In this document: positions 3,561-60,620 of the stretch, piece by piece
Layout of the letters: every line of letters starts with the position of its first letter
How positions within the stretch are numbered: the stretch's first letter is position 1
From: Candidatus Sulfotelmatobacter kueseliae
Lineage (GTDB): Bacteria; Acidobacteriota; Terriglobia; Terriglobales; Acidobacteriaceae
DNA length: 60,620 nt
Assembly (NCBI GenBank): GCA_900290255.1
Contig: OMOD01000079.1
Coordinates: 1 to 60,620, forward strand
Direction of reading: 5' to 3'
The notes under the pieces: model-generated
Told to the model about the DNA's origin: nothing
Databases searched by the model: none
Seen by the model: only the letters and a program-made list of their open reading frames with translations
Position numbers and translations under genes: made by a program

Positions 3561-3562
3561 CT

Positions 3563-12112: not shown

Positions 12113-12113
12113 G

Positions 12114-12200: not shown

Positions 12201-12213
12201 CCGAAGGATTTGC

Positions 12214-13035: not shown

Positions 13036-13131
13036 CATTTTCGATTTCCGATTGTTGATTTGCGATTGAGATCGAGCTGTAGTGATGAAATGTGAACAAT
13101 TGGAAATCGGCAATCGAAAATCGGAAATTTT
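13036..13131. repeat. GATTGCCGATTTTCGATT-family inverted repeat, copy B2
   Basis: ATTTTCGATTTCCGATTG on the left pairs with CGGCAATCGAAAATCGGAAA on the right, about 50 bp apart. It occupies the whole gap up to the asnS start codon and would be in the 5' leader. Confidence 0.7.
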
Positions 13132-13136
13132 CAAGA

Positions 13137-14462: not shown

Positions 14463-14537
14463 TTGCCGATTTTCGATTTTCGATTGCCGATTGGGGCGAC
14501 GGTTGAAAATCGGCAATCGGCAATCGAAAATTGGAAT
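14461..14537. repeat. GATTGCCGATTTTCGATT-family inverted repeat, copy B3
   Basis: TTGCCGATTTTCGATT repeated on the left and AATCGGCAATCGGCAATCGA on the right, separated by about 15 bp: a near-perfect stem just upstream of the PIG-L gene. Confidence 0.75.
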
Positions 14538-14552
14538 TCCCGTGAGGACTTT

Positions 14553-15401: not shown

Positions 15402-15409
15402 CCGCACTT

Positions 15410-16351: not shown

Positions 16352-16360
16352 AAGCGGGAA

Positions 16361-16422
16361 GGGCACGGCTTCAGCCGTGCCGTCAGCGCCACGGGAGGGT
16401 CGCGGCTTTAGCCGCTGAGGGC
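16361..16422. repeat. MITE/REP-like palindromic element, copy A2
   Basis: Perfect 8-bp stem GGCACGGC-ttca-GCCGTGCC at 16362-16381 followed by CGCGGCTTTAGCCGCTGAGG at 16401-16420. It lies between convergent genes and lacks clear outer arms. Confidence 0.75.
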
Positions 16423-16445
16423 TGGCATTTACCATCAGTAGACTG

Positions 16446-27364: not shown

Positions 27365-27500
27365 TAGAACTGGTTTCACAAAAAGGTCTTGGGTAGGGCC
27401 CGGCTTCAGCCGGGCCGCCAAGGGCCGCATAAACGCTGGGCTTTAGCCCCTGAGGGCTTGGCACTCGCCGCACGGAAGATCATTTGTGAGACCAGTTCTA
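27365..27500. repeat. MITE-like palindromic element, copy A4 (complete)
   Basis: Complete element of about 136 bp. Outer arms TAGAACTGGTTTCACAAA (27365-27382) and its inverted copy (27483-27500) match at 17 of 18 positions. Inside are GGCCCGGCTTCAGCCGGGCC and GGGCTTTAGCCCCTGAGGGC, in the same order as copy A1. The CATCCTGAGCGAAGCGAAGG repeat lies just to the left (about 27317). Confidence 0.85.
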
Positions 27501-34943: not shown

Positions 34944-34990
34944 GCCTCTAGCATAATGGACACAGCGGGCAATGCAAAAGTTCCCGAAAA

Positions 34991-35083
34991 GAATTTTCGA
35001 TTGGCGATTTCCGATTGCCGATTTTATGAAGCCTGCGCCCGACGATTTCAATTGGCAATCGAAAATCGGAAATCGCAAATCTC
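34991..35083. repeat. GATTGCCGATTTTCGATT-family inverted repeat, copy B4
   Basis: AATTTTCGATTGGCGATTTC and CCGATTGCCGATTTT on the left; CAATTGGCAATCGAAAATCG and GAAATCGCAAATC on the right. It lies directly behind the ABC permease stop codon. Confidence 0.75.
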
Positions 35084-36196
35084 CTACAGGGTTCGCTTGA
35101 ACAGCGGAATCGCGATCCCCAGCGTGGCCGCGGCGAAAAGTCCCAGGAACAGCATGTCTCCCCAGACGGCGGCGAGCGTCGTCTCCTTCAGCAGCAGGCA
35201 CTTGAACCCGTCCACCGCATAAGTAAACGGATCAACTCTCGCAATCGCCCGCAGCCAAGGCGGAAACGCCTGGATGGGATAGACCGAACCGCTGGGAAAA
35301 AACAACAGCGTGTTGAGGATGCCGAACATGGCGCGCGGCACCAGCGGGTCTTCAATGCGCACCATCAGCAGAAACATCATCGTGTTGAAAGCCAGCGAAG
35401 TCAGCACGATCATGATCAGCAGGCCGACCACCGTCGTGGGATTGAAAATTGTCCCCACGCCCGCCAGCAGCGACCCGATCCCCACGATGACCACGCCCGT
35501 CATCACCGCCTTGATCGCCCCGGCCAAATTCAGCCCCAGCACCAGTTCGAGCTTGGTGATGGGCGTGACCAGGTAGCCCTCGTGCACCCCGCGCGCCTTG
35601 TCGTCGATGTAGAGCATGCCGCCGCCAATCATCACCGACACGAACATGGCCAGCGCCAGCGACCCCGGCAGCAGGTACTTCATGTATTCGATGTACGGAT
35701 AAAGTTCGACAATATCCAGCGCGGTCTGTTGCAAAATCCGCGGCGACACCGCCGGCTGGTTGAGGTTATTGGTCAGATCGGTCAGTTCCGATTCAACCGC
35801 TGAGCTCATGAAATTGTCGCTGTTATCCACCACCAGCGCGATGCGCGGATGATTCTCTTCGTACACGCGCCGCGAGAACTGTGGCGGGATGATGACCGCG
35901 CCCTGCAGCCTGCCGTCACGCACGTCTTCCATGGCCTGCTTGTCGCTGTCGTAAGGGATCGGCGTGAAGGTGCGAATATTCGCCCGCACCGCGTCAAACG
36001 CCTCCCGCACTCGCAGCGCCTGCGGGCCGCCATCCTGGTCCACGATGGCGATCTTGGCGTCGTGAATCTTTCCGCCGAAAGCGTTGCCCAGAACAATCAA
36101 CTGCACCAGCGGAAAGATCATCGAAGCCAGCATCAGCGTCGGCGAGCGGAAGAATTTGCGCATTTCGCGCTCGACAATGGCCATCATTCGATTCAT
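35084..36196 (-). CDS. ABC-2 type transporter permease
   Basis: A 370-residue permease of the ABC-2 type. One N-terminal helix (LMLASMIFPLVQLIVLGNAF) is followed by a long extracytoplasmic domain of about 150 residues and then five C-terminal helices (from LPGSLALAMFVSVMIGGGML), the layout of YbhR/YhhJ-like exporters. It ends the minus-strand operon TetR-HlyD-ATPase-permease. The complex is likely a drug or hydrophobic-compound exporter. Confidence 0.88.
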   Translation of the reverse strand: MNRMMAIVEREMRKFFRSPTLMLASMIFPLVQLIVLGNAFGGKIHDAKIAIVDQDGGPQALRVREAFDAVRANIRTFTPIPYDSDKQAMEDVRDGRLQGAVIIPPQFSRRVYEENHPRIALVVDNSDNFMSSAVESELTDLTNNLNQPAVSPRILQQTALDIVELYPYIEYMKYLLPGSLALAMFVSVMIGGGMLYIDDKARGVHEGYLVTPITKLELVLGLNLAGAIKAVMTGVVIVGIGSLLAGVGTIFNPTTVVGLLIMIVLTSLAFNTMMFLLMVRIEDPLVPRAMFGILNTLLFFPSGSVYPIQAFPPWLRAIARVDPFTYAVDGFKCLLLKETTLAAVWGDMLFLGLFAAATLGIAIPLFKRTL

Positions 36197-48107: not shown

Positions 48108-48454
48108 ACTTCCCCAAGCGAGGAGATGCGTGACCTTTAGGAATATCAGTTAACGTGTTTATTAACAATGATTTGGAGAGTTTTAGAGAAACTTCAGTAA
48201 CTCGGCGTGAGTACCGATAGGGGTTGACAGGAGTGGCAGGGGGGAACCGAGGCAGATTTCCACTCTTTTGACGGGGCTGAGTGGAAACAGGCAGAATAGC
48301 CCCTGCCCGGCTATGAGGCCAGAACCCGCCGCGCCAGGGTCGCGCCCGAGTCGCCCGTGCTGGGACTGGCCGGGGTCATAGAAACGCCGTCGGGCGAACA
48401 AACGGTGGGAACCTTTCTGTCGGGATTGCGTAATCGTGTTGAGGAGGAGAGGCG
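48108..48454. other. Divergent intergenic region
   Basis: Lies between the HD-GYP/GGDEF gene (minus) and the DinB-like gene (plus). AT-rich on the left side, with a candidate minus-strand promoter listed separately; AGGAGG precedes the DinB start at 48455. No gene recognised. Confidence 0.5.
48138..48166 (-). promoter_or_regulatory. Candidate promoter of the HD-GYP/GGDEF gene
   Basis: Minus strand TTGTTA (48166-48161) and TATTCC (48143-48138) with 17-bp spacing, in an AT-rich stretch about 30 bp upstream of the start codon. Confidence 0.35.
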
Positions 48455-49030
48455 ATGCGAAAATTTCTGCCTGTAATTCTGGTTTGCCTGTTCGCGACCG
48501 CCACTTTCGTTTCGGCCCAGGATAAGCCTGCTGCCGTCGCCCAGTCCCAAGACAATCCGTACAGCGGATTCAACAAGCGGGCCTACACCCGGGTCACGGA
48601 TATTTTGCTCCGCTCCGCCGACAAGATGCCCGAGGAGAACTACCAATTTAAACCCACGGACACGGTGCGCACCTACGGCCAAATCCTTGGACACGTGGCC
48701 GACGCCCAGTACCTGTTTTGTTCCATCGCCCTCGGCGAGAAGAATCCCGGCTTGAACGTCGAGCAGACCAAAACCTCGAAAGCCGACCTCATCGCCGCCC
48801 TCAAGGAAGCCTTCGCCTATTGCAATAAGGCCTATGACGGCATGACCGACGCATCCGGCACGCAGACGGTGAAGCTGTTCGGCGGCGACACGCCGAAACT
48901 GGACGTGCTCACGGTCAATAACATGCACAACATGGAACACTACGGCAACCTTGTCACCTACATGCGGATCAAGAACATTGTTCCTCCCAGCAGCGAGCAA
49001 CCGCCTCAGCCGGCAGCGAAGAAACAGTGA
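48455..49030 (+). CDS. Exported DinB-family protein
   Basis: A 191-residue protein with signal peptide (FLPVILVCLFATATFVSAQ). The rest is a DinB/YfiT-like four-helix bundle with the three histidines of the metal site visible as GQILGHVADAQ and NMHNMEHYGNL. These thiol- or metal-dependent enzymes are usually cytosolic; the exported version is common in Acidobacteria but has no known substrate. GGAGGAGAGG lies just upstream. Confidence 0.85.
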   Translation: MRKFLPVILVCLFATATFVSAQDKPAAVAQSQDNPYSGFNKRAYTRVTDILLRSADKMPEENYQFKPTDTVRTYGQILGHVADAQYLFCSIALGEKNPGLNVEQTKTSKADLIAALKEAFAYCNKAYDGMTDASGTQTVKLFGGDTPKLDVLTVNNMHNMEHYGNLVTYMRIKNIVPPSSEQPPQPAAKKQ

Positions 49031-49048
49031 TAGAAATCCGACGGGTGG

Positions 49049-49079
49049 CCCACTCAAGCCCGGTTTTGGCTTGAGTGGG
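49049..49079 (+). terminator. Hairpin terminator after the DinB-like gene
   Basis: Perfect 12-bp stem CCCACTCAAGCC / GGCTTGAGTGGG, loop CGGTTTT, 19 bp after the stop. No T-run follows, so termination efficiency is uncertain. A copy of the D repeat continues to about 49155. Confidence 0.45.
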
Positions 49080-49165
49080 GCCGGGTGCCCCATCCCTTCG
49101 ACTACGCTCAGGGCAGGCTCTTTCGCGTTCTGTGCGGAAGGGTGGGAGGCGCGCATTGAGTAACT

Positions 49166-50050
49166 TCACAGCTCATCGCTCGAACCGCTCCATTTAGCCA
49201 CGAGCTTCTCGACTCTCCTCGCTACTCCGAATGATCCGTTCACCTGCGAGTTGGTCTCGACAGCCGCCCCTATGCGCTTAGAAAAGGAGGGGGACCAGAC
49301 GGTCAGCTCCTCTAGGCGCCCCATCAGCATTTTCGCGGCCGCGAAGCTCCAACTGCTCTCGAACATGGTCACGACCCCTTCGGCGATTTTCATTCTGGTG
49401 TGTTTGTTCTTGCGAAACGAGTCGAAGAGCTCGTGTGCGAGGTCCTCGCCAGACTTTTCGTGGCCGTTGAACGCTTGGAATTTCCCGATGAAGCCGTAGG
49501 GCGTCTGCCGAAATCGAATCGAGCATACCGGCACGCCGCGACCCATTGCGAAGCCAATCTCCTGGTCGGTCCAGTTGCTCGCGTGAAAATCTTCGTGGAG
49601 AAGGCCGACTAGGGCGTCGCAGGTGGCCAGCGCCGACTCAATCTCGTTCTGCCATTCTGAAGTGGGTTCGATATCGTTATGAGCGACGAATGATGAGATG
49701 CCGTAGTTCAGAAGGCTGGCCTGGAGCTGCGCTGCGAACACCTTGTGCTTCGCCAGGTGTGTGACGAACAGGCGCATCATTCCAGGCTGCCAAAACTTTA
49801 GATCTGCCGGGAGAGTGGGGCCTTGTTGGTCGATCTTGTGGCCGACGTGCTCGCCGAGTTCGACCAGCTCGTCGTCGGCGGCGTCCCCGATCATCTTTAG
49901 CACATAGGACGATGTTGATCCGCTCCAGCTGTCTTGCCATGGAAGGCCGAATTGTTTCAAGGTCGTGTCAATGACGGCCCAATCCTCGCCGCCTAGGCTC
50001 GTAGATATGGCCTTCATCAGCTTGACGCGTTGCGACTTTGTAAGAGCCAT
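49166..50050 (-). CDS. TIR-domain protein with AbiJ-NTD-like N-terminus
   Basis: A 294-residue protein. The N-terminal 75 residues (KSQRVKLMKAISTSLGGED ... VLKMIGDAADDELVELGEHV) resemble the helical N-terminal domain of AbiJ-like abortive-infection proteins. Residues 92-190 are a TIR domain: MRLFVTHLAKHKVFAAQLQ, then LATCDALVGLLHEDF and SNWTDQEIGFAMGRG with the W160-x3-E164 pair of NAD-cleaving TIRs. It probably degrades NAD on phage attack and kills or arrests the cell. It starts directly at the stop of the upstream gene, suggesting translational coupling. Confidence 0.82.
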   Translation of the reverse strand: MALTKSQRVKLMKAISTSLGGEDWAVIDTTLKQFGLPWQDSWSGSTSSYVLKMIGDAADDELVELGEHVGHKIDQQGPTLPADLKFWQPGMMRLFVTHLAKHKVFAAQLQASLLNYGISSFVAHNDIEPTSEWQNEIESALATCDALVGLLHEDFHASNWTDQEIGFAMGRGVPVCSIRFRQTPYGFIGKFQAFNGHEKSGEDLAHELFDSFRKNKHTRMKIAEGVVTMFESSWSFAAAKMLMGRLEELTVWSPSFSKRIGAAVETNSQVNGSFGVARRVEKLVAKWSGSSDEL

Positions 50051-50809
50051 TTACTTGAGGCAGTGTTTCGCCTTGTCCACTAGCCCGGCGACAGCGGGCA
50101 GGTGCAGGCCGAGCTTTGCCCCGAGGTCAACCGCCTTGCCTGCCAGCTCCAGGACCCGCTGGCCGCATTCGAGCACCGACCTCCAGTTCCTCTCGTCCTC
50201 GGGCTTCTCGACCTCGGCCGCCAAGGCCTCGATGTCTGCGGCTCCCTCCTTTAGCTGCCGAGGTGTGAGGTCTTGGCTCTGCTGCAGCAGGTACAACATC
50301 TCCTTCAAGTCGGTGCCTGTCTTATTCCCAACGTGGCCGATCCTCTGGATCGCGCTGCCCGTGGCGATCGCTTGATTGAGATTCACGGGCCCGTGGAAAT
50401 TCTGACTCATTCCGCTGGCCCTGCCTCCGCCTCTACGTGCTGTTACGGGCTTGGGCTGCTCGACGTACACGCCGAAGTCTTCGACGTACCTGATGGCGGC
50501 CCTGAGCGTCGCATCCGCAGTCTCGCAGCCGGTCCGGAATCCGTGGAGGTCTTCCTTCGAGACGTAGTCCCCAGGAACGTACACGCCGTACGGAATGATC
50601 CTAGTGGGGCCGAAGAACCTGGTGTCCCGGAAGCGCGCGGTATGGTGCGACTCCGGTCCCAAGAACATCTCTAGGATTCCTCTGGTAGTGTCGCGCCACG
50701 CCTTGAAGTCAGGGCACTTGTGGTTCAAGCTGCGGACTGTCTGCAACTCTCCGAGCTGCCGATTGAGCAGCCTGATCGCCTTTTGCTGTGGGCTTTCTTC
50801 TTCCAGCAC
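50051..50809 (-). CDS. Unknown protein paired with the TIR effector
   Basis: A 252-residue soluble protein with a GTG start. Features: a charged helical N-terminus, a central segment with GMSQNFHGPVNLNQAIATGS (a 'F-GP-N' strand motif often seen in linkers of bacterial conflict proteins) and a C-terminal helical part ending LAGKAVDLGAKLGLHLPAVAGLVD. No enzyme motif. TAA is followed at once by the ATG of the TIR gene, so the two form an operon; it may sense or regulate the TIR protein. Its 5' end overlaps the integrase remnant. Confidence 0.65.
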   Translation of the reverse strand: MLEEESPQQKAIRLLNRQLGELQTVRSLNHKCPDFKAWRDTTRGILEMFLGPESHHTARFRDTRFFGPTRIIPYGVYVPGDYVSKEDLHGFRTGCETADATLRAAIRYVEDFGVYVEQPKPVTARRGGGRASGMSQNFHGPVNLNQAIATGSAIQRIGHVGNKTGTDLKEMLYLLQQSQDLTPRQLKEGAADIEALAAEVEKPEDERNWRSVLECGQRVLELAGKAVDLGAKLGLHLPAVAGLVDKAKHCLK

Positions 50810-50829
50810 GAGTTGATTCTCGTGCAGGT

Positions 50830-51096
50830 CTTAGCCGAGGCGCAACAGAAATCTGGAGTGGTGGACTCTCCTAGTCCTTTGTCCTTTTTCCTCTCGTTCT
50901 CGGCCTCGAGCAGCTTAACCCCGGCCGCGAGGGCGCGGCGGTCGTCCCTCACGTAGTTGCTCATCATCACGGACATCGTCCTGTGCCTGAGGATCTGCGA
51001 CGCGGCATGAGGGGCTCCGGCGAGCGTGGTGGGGAGGCTCGCGCATACCCGTCTCACCGCCTGGAATCCGGCCCGCCCCGCGCCGCTTGCACACAA
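50830..51096 (-). pseudogene. C-terminal remnant of a tyrosine recombinase (integrase)
   Basis: The minus-strand frame reads RRVCASLPTTLAGAPHAASQ, ILRHRTMSVMMSNYVRDDRR, ALAAGVKLLEAENERKK: the end of a phage-type integrase, with the R, the ILxHR segment (the usual H/G-H motif slightly altered) and the nucleophile tyrosine in NYVRDD. The N-terminal and core parts with the first catalytic arginine are absent, and the sequence just upstream does not continue the frame. It is a relic of an older integrative element. Confidence 0.6.
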
Positions 51097-51150
51097 AATG
51101 GTGCTGTAGCAGTTTCAGGGGGTGCACAATCTAGGCCTAATAGGCTCACC

Positions 51151-51170
51151 CCCCGTCGGGTTTGACGGGG
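51151..51170. terminator. Perfect hairpin between integrase remnant and ariB
   Basis: CCCCGTC-gggttt-GACGGGG, in a gene-free stretch (51097-51295). Could terminate the defence operon that ends at 51296, or be part of an old attachment site. Confidence 0.4.
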
Positions 51171-51295
51171 TAAGCTACTTGCCGGGAAAAAGTGTCCCAG
51201 GATAACGTTCGAGTTAGCTGGGCTAACTATCTAGTAAACCAGGGCGGTGGGGGCGCGCGCGAGGGAACGCGGGGTGTGGTTGTGCGTCCCGCGAG

Positions 51296-52216
51296 TCAAA
51301 GTTGGGCTAGTGCGCGCCGCAATGGCTCTCGGAAGTGCTGAACCCAAGGCGCGTTGAAATCAATCGTTGCAATCAAGCTTCCCAGGAGCCGATCTTGAGC
51401 GCCTTGCCTATTGAAGAGTGGATAAGTCAATTCAAGTTCGCGGAGGACGAAGAGCACGTACCACTTTCCTTTGAACAAGAGGTCATGCTCGGCGCGACGG
51501 TACATGGAATCAACAAGTCTGTAAACAGCCGTGAGCTTTCGCTGAAAATCAACGGATGCAAGTCCCGAGCGGGCTTCCATCTCCGTAGCACAGGCTGCCA
51601 ATCCGGCGGCATCCGTGGCCGAATCGACGGGTGTGTTAACCGAGGAAGGCATAGCGTAGCTGGCGGGATATGGCAACGACAGCTTCCTAGCCAAGATGCA
51701 AAGTGCGATCCATTCCCGCCAGCACGCCGCTGCAGTGTTTCGCCAGAGCACAGAATTGGCGACTCGCGCCCGAATGACTCCTACGTCAATCGAGCCAGCA
51801 GTAGCAAGGCTTGACACAAGATCGCCTTCGGCGAACAGGTGGTTCTCGATGCAATAGAAGACCGTGTACACGACGTGGTCAGAGACGCGCAACGTTTTGA
51901 AGATGTCGTCAACGTCCTTATCCAGGTAAAACATGGCGAGCTTCGCATCGACTTGCGAGCGGTCCACCAGAGAATCGTTGTCTCGAAGGTACTCGAAGAA
52001 ACGAGTAAGCATCCCTTTGCCGCCCCCGACACCGTTGATACGATCAGCAACTACAATCTCGTAACTCCTACCGAGGGCGCAGCATTGAGGACCGCAGATT
52101 CTGCCATAAACATCTGGATCGAGGTCGCGGCCCTCAACAAAAATGAACGTCCGCGTTTGCGATAGTTGTATGTACCTTCGCATGCCGCCGAAGCTGTGGG
52201 CCGTGCGAGAGCTCAT
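51296..52216 (-). CDS. ariB: PARIS AriB-like DUF4435 (Toprim) nuclease effector
   Basis: A 306-residue DUF4435 protein. The Toprim-type residues are in order: the glutamate in TFIFVEGRDLDPDVY (about residue 29), the aspartates in AMFYLDKDVDD (about 96-98) and YCIENHLFAEGD, the DUF4435 signature. Its start overlaps the upstream ATPase stop by 4 bp. In PARIS, AriB is released from the AriA ATPase complex when a phage anti-restriction protein is sensed and then cleaves tRNA. Family and partner are clear; activity and trigger in this organism are inferred. Confidence 0.82.
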   Translation of the reverse strand: MSSRTAHSFGGMRRYIQLSQTRTFIFVEGRDLDPDVYGRICGPQCCALGRSYEIVVADRINGVGGGKGMLTRFFEYLRDNDSLVDRSQVDAKLAMFYLDKDVDDIFKTLRVSDHVVYTVFYCIENHLFAEGDLVSSLATAGSIDVGVIRARVANSVLWRNTAAACWREWIALCILARKLSLPYPASYAMPSSVNTPVDSATDAAGLAACATEMEARSGLASVDFQRKLTAVYRLVDSMYRRAEHDLLFKGKWYVLFVLRELELTYPLFNRQGAQDRLLGSLIATIDFNAPWVQHFREPLRRALAQL

Positions 52217-53424
52217 ATGCGAAAGATCTTGCTGTCCGGAATGTCGGCCATTATTTCCGGAGAGTGCGTGGCCATGATGAGTTGGAGCCTGGGATTCAGG
52301 ACGCGCAATGTCGCGACCAGCTTCTTCTGCCAGTCGACGTGCATTGAGAGCTCCGGCTCGTCGATGATCAGGGAATGATTTGAAGCCGTCAGAGCGTACA
52401 GTGCTATGAAGAGGAGTTGTTTCTCGCCGGACGAGAGCAAGCTGAGTCCGATCTCTCGATCCTTGGAGAGTTGAACCTTGATTTCCTTATCGGTAAATTC
52501 CAAATGCTTGCTTCCCGAGAACATCGACTCTAGGACATCGCGGAATCGCTCGCGAGGTGCGGTTATCTCGCCGATGGTCTTTTCCACCCGCTCGATTTGC
52601 TTGACGACGTTTTGCAGCTCCGGCTTTTTAGCGTAGATTGCTGCAAACTTGCTCTCGCTTGTCAGAAGATGACTGAATCCAGGCTGGCGTTCAAGGAAGC
52701 CGCTGATTCTCTTGAAGGCCTCTTTCTCATCTGGCACTGCGGTCACGTCACTTTGGTCCTGCCCCCCAGCGAGAAAGAACCCGAGTATATTGGCGAGCCC
52801 ACGCTCCTGCGCCTTGGCAGTCTCCTTCGAGATATCGGCGTAGTACTCTGACCACTGCGACTGCAACCCGCGCGCGAACGCGCTGTCTAGCTCCTGATCT
52901 GATAGGCGACTGGAGCCGCTTGGCGTCCGAAGATTCCGATAGAGGCGGGAAATCGGAAGGAAACCAAAGCTATGTTCTGTCAGCTTGCCGTCGGGCTCGG
53001 GTGGATCGCTGGACCACTTTGGCGCTTCCACTATCATCCCCTGGTCCTGGTCGAATATTAGATTAGGAGGCAGTGCGGATAAGCTGACTGGGTTCGCAAG
53101 GCCAGCGAGGTTCCACAGAGGTCGCTGAAGATTAGGAACCGATAACTCTACTTCCTTGCTAGGCGTTTGCGGTCGTCGAGTGAATGTGCGGACGAACTCC
53201 TTCCCGTAACGGTTCAAATAGACCTTTACAGCAGCCCGTGCGAACGGCAGGTTCTCCAATATGTCCACGTCAGTTGATAGAGCGGAGTGAAGGATTTTGA
53301 GCAAAGTTGTTTTTCCGCTGCCGTTTAATCCGAAGAATACGTTTACGTCGGAATTGAGCACGAAAGAAATCGGCTCGCTTCGTCCAGCGAGACCTTCCAC
53401 CGTAAATTCTCGAATTTGAGCCAT
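52213..53424 (-). CDS. ariA: PARIS AriA-like AAA ATPase
   Basis: A 403-residue ABC/OLD-type AAA ATPase: Walker A GLNGSGKTT (32-40), signature LLSSGEKQLLF (about 329-339), Walker B SLIIDEPELS (351-360) and the H-switch ATHSPE (H387). A coiled, variable middle (about 180-300) separates them. It is directly followed by the DUF4435 gene (4-bp overlap), the AriA-AriB arrangement. It is somewhat shorter than well-known AriA proteins, so it may be a divergent branch. Role: sensing scaffold that holds AriB inactive. Confidence 0.82.
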   Translation of the reverse strand: MAQIREFTVEGLAGRSEPISFVLNSDVNVFFGLNGSGKTTLLKILHSALSTDVDILENLPFARAAVKVYLNRYGKEFVRTFTRRPQTPSKEVELSVPNLQRPLWNLAGLANPVSLSALPPNLIFDQDQGMIVEAPKWSSDPPEPDGKLTEHSFGFLPISRLYRNLRTPSGSSRLSDQELDSAFARGLQSQWSEYYADISKETAKAQERGLANILGFFLAGGQDQSDVTAVPDEKEAFKRISGFLERQPGFSHLLTSESKFAAIYAKKPELQNVVKQIERVEKTIGEITAPRERFRDVLESMFSGSKHLEFTDKEIKVQLSKDREIGLSLLSSGEKQLLFIALYALTASNHSLIIDEPELSMHVDWQKKLVATLRVLNPRLQLIMATHSPEIMADIPDSKIFRI

Positions 53425-53495
53425 TCGCGTGAGTCCTTTCCCAGACTCAGTCTAATGCTAACGGAGGGATTCCGCATCTTGCAGAATCGTCCAGC

Positions 53496-53624
53496 TCACC
53501 CATTGTTCTCTTGTTCCAATTCGTATTCTTCGAGCACCTTCAGACACTTCGCTAGCCTAGTCGCCCGCACCGGTTCCCGCTTACATATTTTCTCTAAGGT
53601 GTGCTGACTGATTCCCCGGCACAT
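53496..53624 (-). CDS. Small HTH-like ORF, possibly truncated
   Basis: Minus-strand frame ending at TGA 53496. From ATG 53624 it codes for 42 residues, MCRGISQHTLEKICKREPVR then ATRLAKCLKVLEEYELEQ. The same frame stays open upstream to about 53727 and reads VRRTSLANEQLARIAKVPKR just before, together a compact XRE-like helix-turn-helix, but no ATG/GTG/TTG start is present in that part. It may be a short regulator with a non-standard start or a 5'-damaged gene. It lies between ariA and the polymerase operon. Confidence 0.4.
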   Translation of the reverse strand: MCRGISQHTLEKICKREPVRATRLAKCLKVLEEYELEQENNG

Positions 53625-53689
53625 GAATTCACGCTTGGGGACTTTGGCGATCCGCGCTAGTTGCTCATTAGCTAAGCTAGTCCTGCGTA

Positions 53690-54013
53690 CTATGCTCGCG
53701 AATTGCCCGACCCACTTGATGCACTAGGTGTGAGCGAACTAAAGCTGGCTACCGCCGCAAACAGCACGACCCCGATGGCGACTGCCAAGCCGAAAAGTGC
53801 CATCCATATGCCCTGAGACTCCTGATTTGAAGCAGGGTCGGGCACTCGCTCTCGAACGTGAGTGTGCAGCGCGGCCGCGATGTCGGACGTTGCTTTTGAT
53901 ACGCTCGGCTGTCCCGACCCTGTGTTTAGGCGCTGCACTCTCCGCCTCGCATTCCGTTCTTCGTGATGTTCTCGTTCCCACTGGCGCTTACGTTCCGGGT
54001 CCTTGTAGGGCAT
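53690..54013 (-). CDS. Small tail-anchored membrane protein behind the PolB gene
   Basis: Start at ATG 54013, with GAGGAG just upstream; the longer frame runs back into the polymerase gene. The 107-residue product begins MPYKDPERKRQWEREHHEER, a highly basic segment like those at the start of many phage- and element-encoded small proteins, and ends with a single membrane helix (IWMALFGLAVAIGVVLFAAVASF). Unknown function; last gene of the polymerase operon, about 60 bp after it. Confidence 0.6.
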   Translation of the reverse strand: MPYKDPERKRQWEREHHEERNARRRVQRLNTGSGQPSVSKATSDIAAALHTHVRERVPDPASNQESQGIWMALFGLAVAIGVVLFAAVASFSSLTPSASSGSGNSRA

Positions 54014-54072
54014 TATGTGTTCTCCTCTCTTCTGTCCAGGAATTGCACGACCCGCTATGAATGCCGTTCGCA

Positions 54073-57000
54073 CTAGCCGGGTCGGGTCGTACACCCGCCG
54101 GGAAAGCCCGGTTCTGCACATGGACTGGCGTGCTGTTTAAGAAAGTTCCTTATCTTCTGGTACGTTCTTGGCGTTACAGTTCCGCCATGTCGGAGCAGCC
54201 GAATCGGTTTCCTGTGCAGTCCAGTACCGGTTGCAATTTGTCGTTCTGAAAATCCCGCCAACTGGCGCAGAGTTTCGGGGTCGGCCGCCACTCGCCTGTT
54301 CTCATATACCTTGCACTTGTAGTCGGTTTCGTGATCTACCGGACCCTGTTCCAGTTTTCGCTTGAATTCTTTCCCGCAATATTTGAAGTCTCCGGCGATG
54401 ATGTGACGGCGCTGCAATATGCCGCGCGTCCAGGGATCACAGGGATTTCCGTCGGGTCCGGCAAACTTGCACTCCGGGTGATAGAGGTATTGATGGAGGA
54501 TTTCTCGATAGCTCTTTACCGGAATGCGGCCGCTCCTCCGATCACCGGTCGTGATGCGGCATTCTTCGCCTGTGCGAACGTTGTAATACGTCGCGTTGAG
54601 CCACTCATCGGAGTGCTTGGTGAAACGTGTGATGAGGATGGGCTTTTCGGCTCGTTCTGAGGGGTCGAGTCTGTCAGTAAGCAAGATTGGGGCGAGCACG
54701 AAGTCATAGGGTTTACAGAAATTCTTCAAGCGTCCAAGTACGGCAGGGGAAGAAACGGGAATTTTCATCATGGCGGGATAGTCGAGCCACGCGGGGTCTG
54801 ATCCATCCCACAGAACCTGATCGAAGCGTAGGACGTATTGCCAGGCAGTTTCCATCCAATCCGGCTCATCTTCAGACGCGGGCGACATAAGGTAGCCCAG
54901 GCCATGCCCCTTGACTTCAATTATTTTGGCCTTGTCCAGCAGAGAGTACCGCTTGGCGCTAATGGCGTAACCGTGCACTGTGCGAAGCGAGTCAGTCTTG
55001 GGATTCCCATCCTTATAGTTCACGTCTTCGACCTTCAGCAGGTCCCCGCCGAAAGAGTACGGGTTGAGTGAGCGGAAGCGGCGAGCTATCTTCAGTACTT
55101 CAGCGTGTCGAAGAACCGGAATAGGAGCGATCTCGCGTTGATCCATCGCGCATTCTTCCTCCGGACGGGTCGGGTAGACAGTTTCGCCCTTTGGAGATGC
55201 AACCACCGCGATGGAGTCGGTATCACAGAAGAGCCATGTGCCGCCCGCGTCTATAACGCATTGTTCTGCCATTGCGAGAAGCAGCCGCCCGCCAGACGTG
55301 ATCAAACTTGCCAGTGCTGGAAAGTACAGCTTGCCCGGCACTTCTAGGTCGCGGGCGGGCTGATTGTGATGATGTTCGCCGGAAAACACGTCCAGCTCTA
55401 CCGGGGCTGACTCCCGTTGTTCGTTCAACTCGACGAAGGCTCCGTAAGCAGTCGCGTTGGCGATAACTTTCAACGCGTGCTTCAACGTTTTATCTGACTC
55501 ATTTGCCTTGCGCTGCTCGATCAGCACCTTGAAAAAGTCATCGTGATAAGGATCGATCTCTACGACCCCGCGAAGCGTCATCGGCTTCATCCCTGGCTGG
55601 CGACCTTCCGGCTTGATGCGGATAGCTCTCGGTACATTGGGAACTCGTCCAGTTCGAATTATCGAAGCAACGATTTTGGGGCCTGCACACCAGACTGGCT
55701 TCTCGCTGCTGAAGCGGCTGTCCGCGATATTCAGATGTTGGGGATCTTTGGGATCAAATGGTGCACGCACAGGAAGGATATCGTCGTTCGGTTGAATCAA
55801 CGCGAAGAACCTGAGTTTTCTCCAAAATGATGGCTCGAAGCACTCGTCCAGAGTCACGCTCTTGAGAAAATCGTGCACTTCGCTTGTCGCTTCCGGAAAC
55901 GAAACACTTTCGGCTGTGAGGATTTCCCAATTGCCCATATTTGTGTTGACGCTTGGGTATTGGCTCAAAAAATCGAGCCGCATGACAGGCACTTTTATCT
56001 TTCGCGTATGACACTCGGACCTCCCGCCAAAGTAAGCTTGCATAAATATGCCCTGCAGTTCGTGTGGAACTTTGAACTTATCGGATGGTGGAGTGATACG
56101 CATTTGCCGAAAAATGGACTTACCCAGAGACGCTGGACTATAGGCTTTATCTGGAAGCAGATCGTCCAGCCCATAAAGATCGAACTCAGCCTTGGCGCAA
56201 TTCAAAAGGTCCTGCGTGTATTGCACGTCACGCCTGCAATACTGCAACTCTTCGAGTGTGACGTGGCCGCTAGGTTCGTGGTCCAGCTTCTCGTGTACCC
56301 AATCGAGTTTTCGTTCTTCGCGGAAATAACGACACCAGTCACCCACCCCGAGATGTCGATCGAAGAGCGCGAATAACAATGTGCCAACATCCAGCAGCCT
56401 AGCTTGATTTTTCCATTCTGCCGGGCACATGGTCGATCCGCGTGAGATGAAGGCCGTTCGCGCATCTTTTGCCTCGATGATGATCGGCGGGCGGTACGGA
56501 TTTGTAATCCAGCATTGGGTTTTTTCCCACCAGAGTTTTGAGAGGTTGAGAGAGAAGCCTCCGTTGCGCGTCTTTCGCCAACCGGGGTTGGCCATCGGTG
56601 CTGGAACGGGGACTATGAGACGGCTGATATCGAACGGAAGGTTGAAGCCCGCGATGAGCCATCCCTCACGCAGCGCGGGGAAGAACACTCGTTCCATGAA
56701 CTCGGGGAATGAGTGATGCAGCCGAAATCTTATCTTGGGCGGGAAGCTGGGCACTTCGATGTCCGGGGCACTCTCCGTGAAGAATGTCCAGATCGTGTTT
56801 AGTTCTTCTTTTGAGAGCTTGTTGTAGACCAAGCCTTCTTCGTCGCAGCGATACTTTCCGTCAATAAAAGTGCAGGTGCGGTAGACGCTGAACATCAAGG
56901 TCTGATCAATAGAAGTCCGGGTCTCGGTGTCGAAGAGCAGAGCCCGGTCTGGCCAGCATGGAGGCGTTGGGGTAACTGCTTTCGGTGGAGCCTTTGGCTG

Positions 57001-57132
57001 CTTTTCGACCTTGACCGTGTGCGCCCGGAGAAAGATCGGCAAGCGGTTAGGTTCAACGACAAGGTCACACCCCGCTCGCACCGAACGGCTGCCTGAATGA
57101 TGGTTGCGAGGCTCATTCTTTGTTTTACTCAT
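54073..57132 (-). CDS. Family B DNA polymerase (casposon-type candidate)
   Basis: A 1019-residue PolB. The 3'-5' exonuclease is complete: Exo I FDTET (D68, E70), Exo II NLPFD (N164, D168), Exo III YCRRD (Y298, D302). Polymerase motifs: A LDFLSQYPS (D387), B KVIANATAYG (K555, Y563), C FCDTDS (D637, D639). About 155 residues lie between motifs A and B. The C-terminal 300 residues have no assigned domain. Its ATG overlaps the HNH gene stop (ATGA). Family B polymerases are rare in bacterial chromosomes outside Pol II; this one is far from Pol II and sits beside cas1, as in self-synthesising Cas1 transposons. Confidence 0.88.
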   Translation of the reverse strand: MSKTKNEPRNHHSGSRSVRAGCDLVVEPNRLPIFLRAHTVKVEKQPKAPPKAVTPTPPCWPDRALLFDTETRTSIDQTLMFSVYRTCTFIDGKYRCDEEGLVYNKLSKEELNTIWTFFTESAPDIEVPSFPPKIRFRLHHSFPEFMERVFFPALREGWLIAGFNLPFDISRLIVPVPAPMANPGWRKTRNGGFSLNLSKLWWEKTQCWITNPYRPPIIIEAKDARTAFISRGSTMCPAEWKNQARLLDVGTLLFALFDRHLGVGDWCRYFREERKLDWVHEKLDHEPSGHVTLEELQYCRRDVQYTQDLLNCAKAEFDLYGLDDLLPDKAYSPASLGKSIFRQMRITPPSDKFKVPHELQGIFMQAYFGGRSECHTRKIKVPVMRLDFLSQYPSVNTNMGNWEILTAESVSFPEATSEVHDFLKSVTLDECFEPSFWRKLRFFALIQPNDDILPVRAPFDPKDPQHLNIADSRFSSEKPVWCAGPKIVASIIRTGRVPNVPRAIRIKPEGRQPGMKPMTLRGVVEIDPYHDDFFKVLIEQRKANESDKTLKHALKVIANATAYGAFVELNEQRESAPVELDVFSGEHHHNQPARDLEVPGKLYFPALASLITSGGRLLLAMAEQCVIDAGGTWLFCDTDSIAVVASPKGETVYPTRPEEECAMDQREIAPIPVLRHAEVLKIARRFRSLNPYSFGGDLLKVEDVNYKDGNPKTDSLRTVHGYAISAKRYSLLDKAKIIEVKGHGLGYLMSPASEDEPDWMETAWQYVLRFDQVLWDGSDPAWLDYPAMMKIPVSSPAVLGRLKNFCKPYDFVLAPILLTDRLDPSERAEKPILITRFTKHSDEWLNATYYNVRTGEECRITTGDRRSGRIPVKSYREILHQYLYHPECKFAGPDGNPCDPWTRGILQRRHIIAGDFKYCGKEFKRKLEQGPVDHETDYKCKVYENRRVAADPETLRQLAGFSERQIATGTGLHRKPIRLLRHGGTVTPRTYQKIRNFLKQHASPCAEPGFPGGCTTRPG

Positions 57133-57401
57133 CCTAAGATCCTTTCTGGATCAATCTGCTCAGGGTGATCCAGTAACCAGAGAAAGACATGACATCCTTC
57201 ACGAGCGCGTTTGGTCCTTTCCTCAAGATTCATCGCAGGTTTCATCATGTTGGGGTTTGCGCTGTAATACGCTCTCGTAACCATCTGGTGGTGCTGCGTA
57301 CACATCGGCACACGAAACCAACTGCAATTGTTGCGGCCCGCAACATGATGCCATTCCGTTGCAGGCCTATCACAAAACGTGCATCGTTGCCGCAAGGTCA
57401 C
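57129..57401 (-). CDS. HNH-type nuclease, small
   Basis: A 90-residue protein with GTG start (GTGA overlap with the upstream stop). Layout: C7-x2-C10, then WHHVAGRNNCSWF with H18/H19 and N24, then VPMCTQHHQMVT with C34 and H37/H38. This is a zinc-bound beta-beta-alpha HNH pattern with the catalytic HH dyad and the asparagine of a compact HNH endonuclease. It sits between the HTH gene and the polymerase. HNH nucleases accompany casposases in known casposons. Confidence 0.75.
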   Translation of the reverse strand: MTLRQRCTFCDRPATEWHHVAGRNNCSWFRVPMCTQHHQMVTRAYYSANPNMMKPAMNLEERTKRAREGCHVFLWLLDHPEQIDPERILG

Positions 57402-58012
57402 GCAGCACCTACTAGGGCATAAATGTCTTCGAACGGTTCCTCGCTCTCTGCAGTAGCCGCAGCGATGCGGGAGACTTCATAGTGAGATGTAGCGAGACGG
57501 ACACCGTCTATAAAGATGTTGCGAGGGAAGGCATCTATGAGTGAGAAGTTGCGCAGCCCGGCAGCCTTGACTGCGTTGCTCCACGTCCCCACGAGACTTG
57601 CTTTGCGGCTGCCGCGTGCGCGAAGCAACCTAAATTCCCCTGGCTTAGTTGTGTGTATTTTCAGCTTGCGCGTATACGGGTCATATCCACGCGCCTGAAG
57701 TCGGCCCCGTTCGTCACGGAAGAATGCACGCGGAAGGAGATGCTCTGCCGTTCGGCGAGTAATGCCAGCCTGTTCTTCAGCACTCTTCCAAGTAAGATCA
57801 TCCTGGCGTCGACGTCTGAGCAGTTCAAACGCAGCCTTGCGCTTGCGCGAGGTATCGTGACGAGATAAAACTCGTCTCGGTTCGTTTGTACTTTTGGCCC
57901 TAGGTTTCCTTCCACCGCGAGCCTGGGCCTTCATGGATTGGTTCCGTAGTGATCGCCTTCCCTTTTTGCGCACGTCTCGGCGATTGCGGGAGTGTGAGTG
58001 TTGACGGCTCAT
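57398..58012 (-). CDS. Basic HTH-like protein of the polymerase operon
   Basis: A 204-residue protein with an extremely basic first 60 residues, followed by a helical segment (RKAAFELLRRRRQDDLTWKSAEEQAGITRRTAEHLLP) that resembles a helix-turn-helix. A middle part (RGYDPYTRKLKIHTTKPGEF) and a C-terminal part (GTWSNAVKAAGLRNFSLIDA) have no recognised domain. GGAGAG lies 10 bp upstream of the ATG. First gene of the operon HTH-HNH-PolB; probably DNA-binding, perhaps a regulator or a terminal-repeat-binding accessory protein. Confidence 0.6.
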   Translation of the reverse strand: MSRQHSHSRNRRDVRKKGRRSLRNQSMKAQARGGRKPRAKSTNEPRRVLSRHDTSRKRKAAFELLRRRRQDDLTWKSAEEQAGITRRTAEHLLPRAFFRDERGRLQARGYDPYTRKLKIHTTKPGEFRLLRARGSRKASLVGTWSNAVKAAGLRNFSLIDAFPRNIFIDGVRLATSHYEVSRIAAATAESEEPFEDIYALVGAA

Positions 58013-58209
58013 CGGCTAAACTCTCCTCTCAGAATTTCTCTGCCATGCGCCTATTTCTTTCGGCTGATTATTACATGAGAGATTCATCTAAGTCATTATG
58101 TTGCAATAACTTGTACAAGATAACCTTGATCGGTCTTACGCATAATAACTGGCGTAGACTGACAATTTAACGTATAATATTCCTTGGTTGACTGGAGATT
58201 CCCGCAAGT
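58013..58209. promoter_or_regulatory. Divergent promoter/control region of the Cas1-PolB element
   Basis: The most AT-rich stretch of the area. It has TATAAT at 58173 for the rightward operon (with no good -35), a minus-strand TTATCT-N17-CATAAT pair for the leftward operon, the perfect palindrome CTTGTACAAG at 58110-58119, and two direct copies of ACG(C/T)ATAATA about 30 bp apart (about 58138 and 58170). Confidence 0.5.
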
Positions 58210-58758
58210 ATGGCAAGGTCAAAAAAAGCGAAAACGGCAGCTCAAATTTCCCTTGACCCGCCTTCTGAAAAAGCTCGCCGGGGACCGAAACCGAACTTCC
58301 CGCCTGGCGAGGTCTCTCTGCGGGCTGGCAATTACCGAGGATTTCTAGCCAACATCTGGGACCGTCTCTGGCCGAAACTTTCGGAGGCACAAACTGAGGA
58401 CGATGTGGTTAGTGCCTTTCGCCAGGCTTTTGTAGGTGAATGTGATTTCATCCCGTCTCGCGCTCCCCTCATTCTGAAAGTCAAGAACGAGCGCTTATTT
58501 CCGAAACGGCGGACAACACAGATCAATTTCATCGCGGATTCTTTGGCGGGACTAGGAGTGGTGACTGCTCGCCGCTCTCGCGACATCTGTGCTGAGGAAC
58601 GCGCAAGAGCGAAGCGTGCTCACCAGATTCTCCGGTGCGAGTACTACATTGAGTGTTCGTGTGGGTACAGCGGACCTTCCCATGATCACGCCTGTCGCTG
58701 GTGCCGCACGACGATTCCTGACACGCTGCTCCCGGCAACGGGTATTGACTTTATGTGA
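58210..58758 (+). CDS. Unknown zinc-ribbon protein upstream of cas1
   Basis: A 182-residue protein. Basic start (MARSKKAKTAAQISLDP), a helical middle (FLANIWDRLWPKLSEAQTED and VVSAFRQAFVGECDF) and a C-terminal zinc ribbon: YIECSCGYSGPSHDHACRWC, cysteines spaced CxC and CxxC. In between, KVKNERLFPKRRTTQINFIA and LAGLGVVTARRSRDICAEER suggest nucleic-acid contact. First gene of the two-gene operon with cas1 (86-bp gap). No family recognised; it may assist the integrase or regulate it. Confidence 0.7.
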   Translation: MARSKKAKTAAQISLDPPSEKARRGPKPNFPPGEVSLRAGNYRGFLANIWDRLWPKLSEAQTEDDVVSAFRQAFVGECDFIPSRAPLILKVKNERLFPKRRTTQINFIADSLAGLGVVTARRSRDICAEERARAKRAHQILRCEYYIECSCGYSGPSHDHACRWCRTTIPDTLLPATGIDFM

Positions 58759-58844
58759 AGAGGTTTTCTTGTTCCGTAAAAGCGGGCCTGCCGACTGTTA
58801 GCGCAGCCGACAAGCCCTGACCACCATAGGAGGCATTGGCTCTA

Positions 58845-60380
58845 ATGGCAGCTTCGAGCACCCTACCGCAACAAAACATCTATCGCAAATCCCCTGTAGG
58901 CAAAACTGGCGTTCTCACCCTCACTGGCTTTGGAATCAAAGTGCGGATGCAGTCGGGCCATCTTGAAATCGAGGACGGCATCGGGCTAGAGCGCCGCAAG
59001 ATTCGGCTCGCCCGCGTGGGCCACGGGCTGAAACGGTTGGTCTGCATTGGCTCTGATGGGTTCGTGTCGCTGGCAGCACTGCGCTGGCTCGCGGACCAAG
59101 ATGCAGCGTTCACCATGCTTGATCGCAATGGGAAGGTGCTGGCCGTAACCGGGCCGGTCCGTCCTTCGGATGCCAAGCTCCGGCGTGCTCAGGCTCTCGC
59201 GCATTCGTCCGGGGTGGCCTTGCGTATAGCACGAGAACTCATCAGCCAAAAGCTGACCGCACAGGAACTCGTTGCACGTCGCAAACTGCTCGATTCTACA
59301 ACCGCTGACAGCATCGCCCAATTCCGGGTCGAGCTGCCCACGGCAGACAGCATCACGACGGTTCGGCTGATCGAGTCGCAGGCAGCCCGCGCCTATTGGT
59401 CTGCGTGGCGTACGCTGCCGATCAATTTTCCTAGAAAAGATGAGTCTCGACTAGCCGCCCACTGGCGCAGTTTTGGCGCGCGCATCTCGCCGCTTACTGG
59501 ATCGCCCCGACTCGCTTGCAACCCGCCAAACGCCATCTTGAACTATTTGTACTCGCTGGCAGAGGCAGAAGCGCGACTCGCCGCCAGCGCGATGGGGCTC
59601 GATCCGGGACTCGGCGTATTGCACACCGATACGACTGCTCGCGATAGTTTGGCCTGCGACCTCATGGAGCCAATTCGCGCTCAAATTGACTCCTACTTGA
59701 TTGACTGGGTCACGCACCAGCCGCTCAGACGGGAGTGGTTTTTCGAGCAGAGAGACGGCAACTGCCGACTGATGGGGTCGTTCGCTGCCCGTCTGGCCGA
59801 GACCGCCCCGACCTGGGGTCGGGCCGTTGCACCGATAGCGGAATGGGTCGCTCGTGCGTTCTGGTCAACCATTCGCAAACCCGACACCCCATTGGCTACG
59901 CGGTTGACTCAGGCTAACAAGCGTGAAGCCAAAGGCACTGCGTGTCCTCCCCTTAGCAATCCGCCCCAGCCGCAAAATGTCTGCCTTGGATGCGGGAAGG
60001 CTGTTGCTACCGCCAGCACTCGCTGCGCTACCTGTGCAATCGAAGTCTCAAGAAAGAGAATGCTGGAAGTGGCGAAACGGGGACGCGTAGCCTCGAAGTC
60101 CGCTCAGTCCAGAGCGCGAGTTGCCGCAACACAGCATCGCCAGCAGACGGCCCAACGAAACTGGCAGCCATCCAGCCAACCAGCTTGGCTCACGGAAGAA
60201 GCATACGCGAAGCAAATTCAACCCCTGCTCAGAAATATAAGTCTTTCGCAGATTGCTTCAGCAATCGGAGTCTCAATTCTGTATGCGTCCGACATCCGCC
60301 GAGGCAGACGCCGCCCGCATCCTAGGCACTGGCAGGCGCTGGCGGAACTGGTCGGTCTTCCGCCTGGCGGTGCTCATTGA
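58845..60380 (+). CDS. cas1: Cas1-family integrase (casposase-like) with C-terminal zinc ribbon and HTH
   Basis: Start at ATG 58845, 11 bases after AGGAGG; a TTG at 58836 lies too close to it. Of 511 residues, the first ~345 are Cas1: N-terminal beta domain (TLTGFGIKVRMQSGHLEIED), then the metal residues E177 in RLIESQAARAYW, H260 in LGVLHTDTTARD and D272/E275 in LACDLMEPIR. Residues 380-397 are a CxxC...CxxC ribbon (CLGCGK, RCATC). The end (SLSQIASAIGVSILYASDI) is an HTH. CRISPR Cas1 lacks this tail; casposon integrases carry C-terminal HTH domains. No cas2 or array nearby. Role inferred: cut-and-paste integration of the surrounding element. Confidence 0.88.
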   Translation: MAASSTLPQQNIYRKSPVGKTGVLTLTGFGIKVRMQSGHLEIEDGIGLERRKIRLARVGHGLKRLVCIGSDGFVSLAALRWLADQDAAFTMLDRNGKVLAVTGPVRPSDAKLRRAQALAHSSGVALRIARELISQKLTAQELVARRKLLDSTTADSIAQFRVELPTADSITTVRLIESQAARAYWSAWRTLPINFPRKDESRLAAHWRSFGARISPLTGSPRLACNPPNAILNYLYSLAEAEARLAASAMGLDPGLGVLHTDTTARDSLACDLMEPIRAQIDSYLIDWVTHQPLRREWFFEQRDGNCRLMGSFAARLAETAPTWGRAVAPIAEWVARAFWSTIRKPDTPLATRLTQANKREAKGTACPPLSNPPQPQNVCLGCGKAVATASTRCATCAIEVSRKRMLEVAKRGRVASKSAQSRARVAATQHRQQTAQRNWQPSSQPAWLTEEAYAKQIQPLLRNISLSQIASAIGVSILYASDIRRGRRRPHPRHWQALAELVGLPPGGAH

Positions 60381-60575
60381 CCCCATGATGAGTGTAAACG
60401 GGATTTTGAGACAGTTGTCTGTTCGTTAAGTTGCCAAAGGGAAAGCCAGCTAGTGGTGCTTTTGTGCGATGGTTGCAGAACCCCACGAATGCTCGGCCCC
60501 TTCGTGTCGCGCCTGCTATGGAAGCGGGGCTGGTCGAATCGCGTTCGGACAGTTGCCGCCCTTTTACGTGGACCT

Positions 60576-60603
60576 GTTCAAAATTGATCGTTCAAAACTG
60601 ACC
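60576..60603. repeat. Tandem 14-bp repeat at the right edge, IS21-end-like
   Basis: GTTCAAAATTGATC followed directly by GTTCAAAACTGACC (12 of 14 identical). Short tandem repeats of this TTCAAA-TGACC type are typical of the ends of IS21-family elements. The rest would lie outside the window. Confidence 0.4.
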
Positions 60604-60620
60604 ATTCTTATACATGCCTT

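Follow-up and report, generated by a model that had tools for sequence, protein, structure and literature searches.

Contig OMOD01000079.1 of Candidatus Sulfotelmatobacter kueseliae (assembly GCA_900290255.1, forward strand, positions 1-60,620), whose first lines are shown above and which was analysed over its entire length of 60,620 nt (the window), ends within an element that is very likely a casposon. Judged from its sequence, it represents a DNA transposon that is driven by Cas1 and probably replicates itself, and it appears to prefer promoters of the sigma-70 type. A sequence-only reading had already proposed a casposon at positions 53690-60380, and this proposal was borne out by terminal inverted repeats (TIRs), a 14-bp target duplication (TSD), a patchy distribution, an empty site and a separate Cas1 clade. 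The coordinates turned out to be too narrow, since the element starts at 51167, reaches the contig end at 60620 and continues on contig C35 of the same genome. We add to that reading the element ends, a tandem neighbour, cargo genes and the promoter context. The features are collected in Table 1.

Table 1. Features of the casposon and its left flank in the window
Feature	Coordinates	Strand	Basis and remarks
Apparent TIR end of neighbouring element, GGGGTGAGCCTATTAGGCC...CACCCCC	51118..51152	-	Abuts the same 14-bp sequence
TSD copy 1, CCGTCGGGTTTGAC	51153..51166	.	Copy 2 at C35:333-346
Left terminal inverted repeat	51167..51246	+	74/80 bases match the inverted end on C35
Cargo ORF, 306 aa	51296..52216	-	No family found
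Cargo ORF, AAA ATPase, 403 aa	52213..53424	-	Best PADLOC model AriA (PARIS)
ORF, 143 aa, doubtful gene	53690..54121	-	Overlaps polB end; nothing over curated cut-off, nothing in PADLOC
Family B DNA polymerase (PolB), 1019 aa	54073..57132	-	PF03175 and motifs
HNH-like protein, 90 aa	57129..57401	-	Overlaps polB; PF16786 E 3e-5, weak, under curated cut-off
Basic protein, 204 aa, probably HTH	57398..58012	-	Position and weak HTH matches of counterparts only
ORF182, cysteine-bearing (CxC..C..C), upstream of cas1	58210..58758	+	Alignment of relatives; low-confidence model, pLDDT 65
Cas1 (casposase), C-terminal zinc-ribbon-like cysteines and HTH	58836..60380	+	Likely start 58845

The left TIR directly adjoins the TSD, and a right TIR, which stops at C35:332, was found together with the identical TSD approximately 300 bp into contig C35. 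The check on extended flanks suggested by the sequence-only reading thus located TIRs and an exact 14-bp target duplication on both sides. It must be mentioned that the window casposon was spliced, across a gap of unspecified length, from two contigs of a draft assembly in which contamination amounts to 8.5%. Its left end was missed by exact and weighted scans with the TIRs of relatives, in which the best window score was 9.1 bits and scattered, and was located by a looser pattern. An interpretation of the TIRs as a dispersed repeat was rejected, as the motif GGGATAGGAGA was confined to element ends or stood back-to-back with them in the regions scanned. At the left TSD of the window, element ends likewise seem to lie back-to-back; a search for the left, i.e. 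the other, end of this neighbour gave no result. Some TIR-pattern matches hinted at additional TIR types.

The window copy could be a decaying, immobile casposon, which we consider rather doubtful. Its HNH-like protein comprises 90 aa versus 163-164 aa in the relatives G329 and G233a, relatives often have a cas1 copy that is truncated, and the source genome itself carries a cas1 fragment on contig C163. However, cas1 and polB of the window are open and long, the TIRs are identical at 74 of 80 positions and the TSD is perfect.

The Cas1 protein matched PF01867 with E 6e-40 and, in its C-terminal part, HTH_3 with E 3e-5. The residues E180, H263 and D275, which had been claimed to be intact, were confirmed, and they are invariant together with the cysteines 383/386/397/400 across an alignment of 30 relatives. 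The start at 58845 is the likelier one, because the corresponding M4 is invariant in six relatives. When the fold was compared with the PDB, three casposase chains were the best matches, with the M. mazei casposase on top; in the sequence profile, the CRISPR Cas1 4n06 scored equal to the casposase 6opm. The proposed phylogeny set the acidobacterial Cas1s apart from the other Cas1 of the phylum as a single clade (support 100/100), which joins the M. mazei casposase with support 91/72 in a tree bearing a long-branch warning.

The PF03175 match of PolB (E 2.8e-8) covers residues 286-398 only. Exo I, II and III as well as motif A (DFLSQYPS) and motif C (DTDS) were found by script and a motif B-like KVIANATAYG was identified by eye, in agreement with the earlier assignment to the family B polymerases with Exo and Pol motifs. 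PolB was present in 6 of 9 genomes among one set of relatives. The 204-aa basic protein had no usable Pfam match; its positional counterparts gave HTH matches below the cut-off (E 0.006 in G329, E 0.0015 in G084). ORF182 belongs to no family in Pfam, NCBIfam or PADLOC, its cysteines are conserved across three to four aligned relatives, and its structure was predicted from four sequences.

Among 398 genomes of the same family, 46 encode related Cas1 proteins, isolates included, compared to four bacterial hosts named in the available excerpts of the founding paper (PMC4046053). The group also comprises forms in which cas1 or polB is not intact. In an alignment-based scan, all 55 named loci with related Cas1 were acidobacterial. 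Such scans gave matches where single-protein scans did not: the latter found no PolB in genome contigs and no Cas1 in viral contigs, and viral contigs scanned with the M. mazei casposase gave no match either. Plasmids contained no PolB match; the plasmid Cas1 matches listed were rejected as casposases, being CRISPR Cas1 by annotation, and those in two phage records were rejected as CRISPR Cas1 by their gene neighbours, read by eye. Exact 14-bp TSD and TIR pairs were detected automatically 26 times in 23 of 35 regions and not at all in three control modes; the 12 regions missing such a pair include the window. The inserts, 5-17 kb in size, sit at different loci in different genomes. One tRNA-Gln site is shared by different elements in G329 and G233, with flanks 98% identical. 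The search for empty sites in related genomes, also proposed earlier, yielded a single one, in G337, which concerns a relative's element of the group and not the window copy; here 270 of 290 columns are identical over the junction, with a single copy of the 14-mer. For the window copy, no clean empty site with the two flanks was obtained.

These observations also bear on the alternative that there is no mobile element here but either the remains of a CRISPR-Cas adaptation module or a locus fixed in the chromosome, an explanation we regard as highly improbable. The equal profile scores of CRISPR Cas1 and casposase would be in line with it. However, a genome-wide search found no cas2 in the source genome, and neither a direct-repeat family nor an array was present at the locus (48000-60620 scanned). 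A scan with a CRISPR-repeat-like string gave zero matches, a result of little weight. The Cas1 with its kept catalytic residues is a stand-alone protein, as had been claimed for a cas1, polB, HNH and HTH gene set without cas2 or array. The sequence-only reading had named as contrary signs a nearby cas2 or array with Cas1 nesting inside CRISPR subtypes, and one fixed locus without ends; what we found is a genome without cas2 and different loci with ends present. Because of the TIRs, the TSDs and the empty site, the reading as a CRISPR remnant or fixed locus is refuted, and the patchy occurrence of Cas1 speaks against it as well.

Regarding the target, the site sequences suggest that the acidobacterial group tends to insert at promoters, including those of tRNA and tRNA-synthetase genes; no report of a promoter as casposon target was found in the literature searched. 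The count was based on 21 of 28 sites, as three were dropped because their flank is another element (G084a2, G417b, G572), one is nested (G688big) and three repeat a tRNA-Gln site (G233b, G094, G718c). With sites oriented by similarity to TTTGAC ahead of counting, the TSD ended in TTGAC, the -35 box, at 16 of 21. A -10 box (TAnnnT) at 16-18 bp was also present at 16 of 21 sites, versus 56 of 1925 other TTGACs (2.9%), those coinciding with real sites being skipped. The exact TTGAC, the -10 box or both are missing at 7/21 sites, and in G579 the insertion falls inside an open reading frame. Downstream genes include those of tRNA-Gln, tRNA-Ala, a tRNA-synthetase and L21; as to the gene downstream of the window element, all 11 relatives examined have its promoter conserved. 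Upon insertion, one copy of the -35 box stays with the downstream gene. A tRNA attachment site of a tyrosine recombinase was rejected, given the 14-bp duplications with TIRs and a distance of 98-100 bases between the start of the 14-mer and the tRNA.

It could be argued that the casposon reads only a short TTTGAC-like motif without true promoter targeting, and that the promoter bias arises from loss elsewhere or from reuse of conserved sites (tRNA-Gln, valS). The sites are indeed not independent, with valS five times and tRNA-Gln three times among the 21, TTGAC comprises their most strongly conserved bases and five sites are without a -10 box. But this explanation seems unlikely to us: counted by distinct downstream gene, a correctly spaced -10 box occurs at 9 of 14, versus 2.9% of the remaining TTGACs and, within the same set of sequences, 9 of the 155 remaining TTTGACCs, and the site in G676 has TATACT at 17 bp though it lacks TTGAC. 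Returning to promoter targeting, we consider it moderately probable that this Cas1 integrase has a working sigma-70 promoter as natural target, in which spacer and -10 box would act as the 'leader' and the -35 box as the leader-side end of the duplication, each insertion rebuilding the promoter.

In the proposed mechanism, Cas1 as the presumed integrating enzyme would bind the GGG-starting TIRs and join them to both target strands, 14 bp apart, and gap filling would give rise to the 14-bp duplication. Copying or repair of the element would fall to PolB, perhaps together with HNH; these roles, like that of ORF182, we infer. At the preferred sigma-70-type promoter, recognised possibly as DNA or via bound polymerase, one joint would lie directly behind the -35 box. 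Therefore, the duplicated 14 bp would carry TTTGAC, the downstream gene would keep a full promoter and presumably its expression, and the element could hence settle next to tRNA, tRNA-synthetase and ribosomal-protein genes and leave them intact. A site can be reused, which leads to tandem elements, and anti-phage genes are carried along as cargo.

The Cas1 fold, the catalytic residues and a short sequence that is duplicated next to a stretch with a promoter resemble CRISPR adaptation by Cas1-Cas2, where the leader is this stretch. In contrast to CRISPR adaptation, there is no Cas2, no array at the locus, the inserts are 5-17 kb long and transcription from the casposon-site promoter runs away from the duplication. 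Casposons are regarded as the source from which CRISPR immunity arose. The group offers exact ends, an empty site and a site that was used repeatedly, and it points to a Cas1 integrase aiming at promoters, often of translation genes. This connects the targets of casposons with the CRISPR leader, which likewise bears a promoter, and provides a bacterial system for testing the connection. If true, a promoter beside the duplication would be a plausible model for the transition from casposon target to CRISPR leader and repeat, even though at the casposon sites it is directed away from the duplication.

Among known casposons, the excerpts of PMC4046053 assign to the bacterial family 3 an actinobacterium, an alpha- and a betaproteobacterium and Ca. 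Acetothermum as hosts. The elements described here share with family 3, especially AceAut-C1, a bacterial host, PolB, HNH and an HTH protein, TIRs and TSDs, and, compared by description only, a Cas1 with a zinc-binding domain and HTH, both C-terminal (PMC4046053, in excerpts). Unlike family 3, the hosts are acidobacterial, and the excerpted description of that family names no promoter target (PMC4046053). The proposed new bacterial casposon group is partly supported, as a probable new acidobacterial lineage: the single Cas1 clade speaks for it, and the comparison with family 3 covered described features only. According to excerpts of PMC4046053, PMC6614799 and PMC9939771, family 2 (Aciduliprofundum boonei, Methanosarcina mazei) is similar in the C-terminal HTH of Cas1, the PolB, HNH and HTH genes, the 14-15-bp TSD, tandem insertion and a target composed of the TSD and an adjacent leader-like stretch. 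It differs in that its target is the 3' end of tRNA genes, whereas the elements described here use the promoter that precedes tRNA and other genes.

With respect to cargo, the acidobacterial casposons carry anti-phage genes. In the window element, the 403-aa ATPase matched AriA with E 9e-36 and AAA_21 with E 2e-23.

By the structural features examined, the element at the right end of the window is a casposon. The gene set that the sequence-only reading had described was recovered, with a Cas1 (PF01867, E 6e-40, plus a C-terminal HTH_3) in which E180, H263, D275 and four cysteines are present, a family B polymerase of 1019 aa, a weakly matching HNH protein and a basic protein that is probably the HTH component; ORF182, a cysteine-bearing protein, is also encoded. 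The described lack of cas2 and of a CRISPR array agrees with our searches, which found no Cas2 in the genome and no direct-repeat family at 48000-60620. Window Cas1 is the single PF01867 match of its genome, in which contig C163 carries a cas1 3' fragment.

Because the window is the entire contig (G000:C186, 60620 bases), the sequence breaks off within the element, 240 bases after cas1. A search of the genome with the 31-base core of the terminal inverted repeat (TIR), allowing up to 3 mismatches, gave two matches, both exact, one at the left end of the element and one inverted on contig C35, and the two ends agree at 74/80 of the first TIR bases. CCGTCGGGTTTGAC stands directly before the left TIR and again, identical, beyond the repeat on C35. 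Hence, the proposed inverted ends and 14-15 bp target site duplication (TSD) were both found, and as they match on C35 the element is estimated at at least 9.8 kb, plus a contig-break gap of undefined size. Since an opposite-sense GGGG-type end lies 14 bp from the window TIR, the insertion site is apparently occupied by a second element as well, whose other end was sought within the window and not found. A TIR-domain gene and its neighbour, left of the casposon, are probably cargo of this tandem neighbour.

Features and their coordinates in the window, on contig C35 and at other loci (gene kinds at L211 by eye)
Feature	Sequence	Position	Observation
Left TIR, start	window	51167	
Second TIR core	C35	301-331	inverted
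End of apparent second element	window	directly left of 51153	GGGG-type, opposite sense
TIR-domain gene	window	49166-50050	TIR_2, E 2e-11
Neighbouring gene	window	50051-50809	without family
Dispersed repeats	window	5264-5339, 16356-16421, 27381-27456	GC-rich palindrome (GGGCACGGCTTCAGCCGTGCC), GGGCTTTAGCCCCTGAGGG-like tail
Second dispersed repeat family	window	12112-12202, 13037-13129, 14454-14540, 34990-35086	CGATTGCCGATT-like units and complements
Group cas1	L211 (IMGVR_UViG_3300048818_000271)	1043-4255	ends early beside recombinase-like ORF on phage-like contig; a prophage may have entered cas1
5.1-kb element	L127 (G572)	11412-16519	Cas1 gene present, no polB among its ORFs
Repeat ORF	L033 (G007)	13956-16277	~36-aa tandem repeats within casposon
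Further TIR type GGGGATAGCTATAG	L041 (G233c)	36, 8302, 14045	duplication CACTTCAAAAACC, tandem around PolB fragment

Ends of the same kind were detected across the group. Exact 14-mer repeats flanking an inverted repeat (at least 16/25 match) were searched in 35 regions, namely the window and 34 around relatives, two of which were each built from two contigs. This resulted in 26 pairs in 23 regions; each of the three control modes, across 694 repeat pairs, yielded 0. No pair was found in the other 12 (G084b, G539, G581, G718b, G452b, G400, G520b, G678, G648, G644, G007x and the window, whose pair needed C35); the G007 ends, with one additional base on one side, were resolved by hand. Element sizes range from 5.1 to 17.2 kb, except for one nested 24.7-kb span, and nearly all TIRs start with GGG or GGGG; their sequences vary between lineages.

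The search for empty sites in related genomes was successful for the element in G163. Its joined flanks align with G337 (270 identities in 290 columns, 2 gap positions), where a single 14-mer copy with one mismatch occurs, and on this alignment the G337 locus is the empty site. At the same place upstream of tRNA-Gln, G155 (L246) holds a mini-element of ~140 bp that is flanked by two copies of the 14-mer (GTCGAGCCGTTGAC) and has GGGTAGG/CCTACCC-type ends, a casposon-derived miniature. Moreover, one site with 98% identical flanks is occupied in G329 and G233 by elements whose TIRs differ, and tandem pairs with a common TSD occur in G084 (16.4 + 5.3 kb) and G417 (17.2 + 5.9 kb). In both pairs the smaller partner lies outside the matches to the six-Cas1 profile; in G084 it lacks a PolB match, and in G417 it retains, by eye, a C-terminal piece of PolB.

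When sites were oriented by resemblance to TTTGAC, most read TTTGAC, spacer, TAnnnT. The TSD ends in TTGAC at 16/21 sites (exceptions G233a, G233c, G579, G676, G718a), TAnnnT follows at 16-18 bp at 16/21 (exceptions G233c, G088, G579, G634, G718a), and both occur together at 14/21. Among other TTGACs of the same sequences 56/1925 (2.9%) have TAnnnT at that spacing, and among other TTTGACCs 9/155. The nominal binomial p for the -10 enrichment is 5e-21, to be read with the sites not being independent (9/14 by distinct downstream gene). Downstream lie tRNA-Gln (six loci), tRNA-Ala (one locus), ValRS (five genomes, by eye; the two tested both match the class I tRNA-synthetase model) and, in one genome each, a TGS-domain protein (ThrRS by eye), ribosomal L21 and a protein kinase; no reliable identity was obtained for the remaining genes, and the G579 insertion is inside an open reading frame. 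Downstream of the window element lies a gene for a DUF4932/TPR-type protein, which has matches in 42/45 genomes of the genus, its own included. The promoter upstream of this gene is kept in 11/11 relatives whose loci were returned; by eye, 5 of them have a GGG-type end directly against the 14 bp, and the other 6 have none. Element orientation varies: the cas1 end adjoins the promoter in the window and G084, the polB end in G329 and G233a.

In a Cas1 tree of 66 sequences, all 30 solo Cas1 from acidobacteria fall into a single clade (100/100) apart from 35 others, 30 of which are the best PF01867 matches of other acidobacteria, assumed to be CRISPR Cas1 without a neighbour check. The clade joins the M. 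mazei casposase fragment at 91/72, with a long-branch warning of the program. The AlphaFold model of Cas1 (pLDDT 80.6) best matches three chains of the casposase structure 6opm (E 6e-17 to 5e-15), followed by the CRISPR Cas1 4n06 (1e-14); by sequence profile both match equally. PolB gave no match in the PDB or among plasmids.

Relatives of window Cas1 occur in 9/396 genomes of the phylum, its own included, and 6 of these 9 also hold PolB. The six-Cas1 profile has matches in 46/398 family genomes, again with its own (E <= 1e-50). A 30-sequence Cas1 alignment scan of named genome contigs, which relied on two short peptide patterns that distant kin elsewhere could escape, gave 55 loci, all with acidobacterial titles, including Edaphobacter lichenicola M8UP30 and X5P2, Edaphobacter aggregans and Granulicella sp. 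L46; the viral contigs gave one Cas1 match.

Sequence comparison shows inverted ends, a 14-bp duplication, an empty site, repeated site use and a promoter context. Cas1 would perform the joining, like known casposases, and PolB and HNH may act in replication or repair. As ORF182 is upstream of cas1 and codirectional, it could assist Cas1, although the gene at that place in G329, G233a and G007 is unlike it. The downstream promoter would survive insertion because the TSD contains the -35 box. The suggested new bacterial group can be specified as a new acidobacterial lineage, which by domain order, compared by description only, is perhaps near family 3 casposons. The word promoter has 0 occurrences in the main text, as accessible, of PMC4046053, PMC9939771, PMC6614799 and PMC6563490, and in the accessible text of PMC7305122 the sole mention of casposon is in the reference list. 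In the mostly open-access literature surveyed, preprints excluded, we found no report of an acidobacterial casposon group or of promoter targeting, and the target of this lineage is not described there.

The cargo was sampled with ten hand-picked ORFs from seven elements, not a census, and 8/10 had matches. Of the two from the window, one encodes an AriA-like ATPase (E 9e-36), and no family was found for the other, a protein of 306 aa; other elements carry GmrSD, a type IIG-like protein, two methyltransferase-like proteins, an AIPR/AbiU-like protein, an NTPase (PDC-M54A) and a GHKL ATPase. Furthermore, the cas1-polB core is oriented oppositely in G007 and G345 relative to type III-like modification genes (gene kinds by eye).
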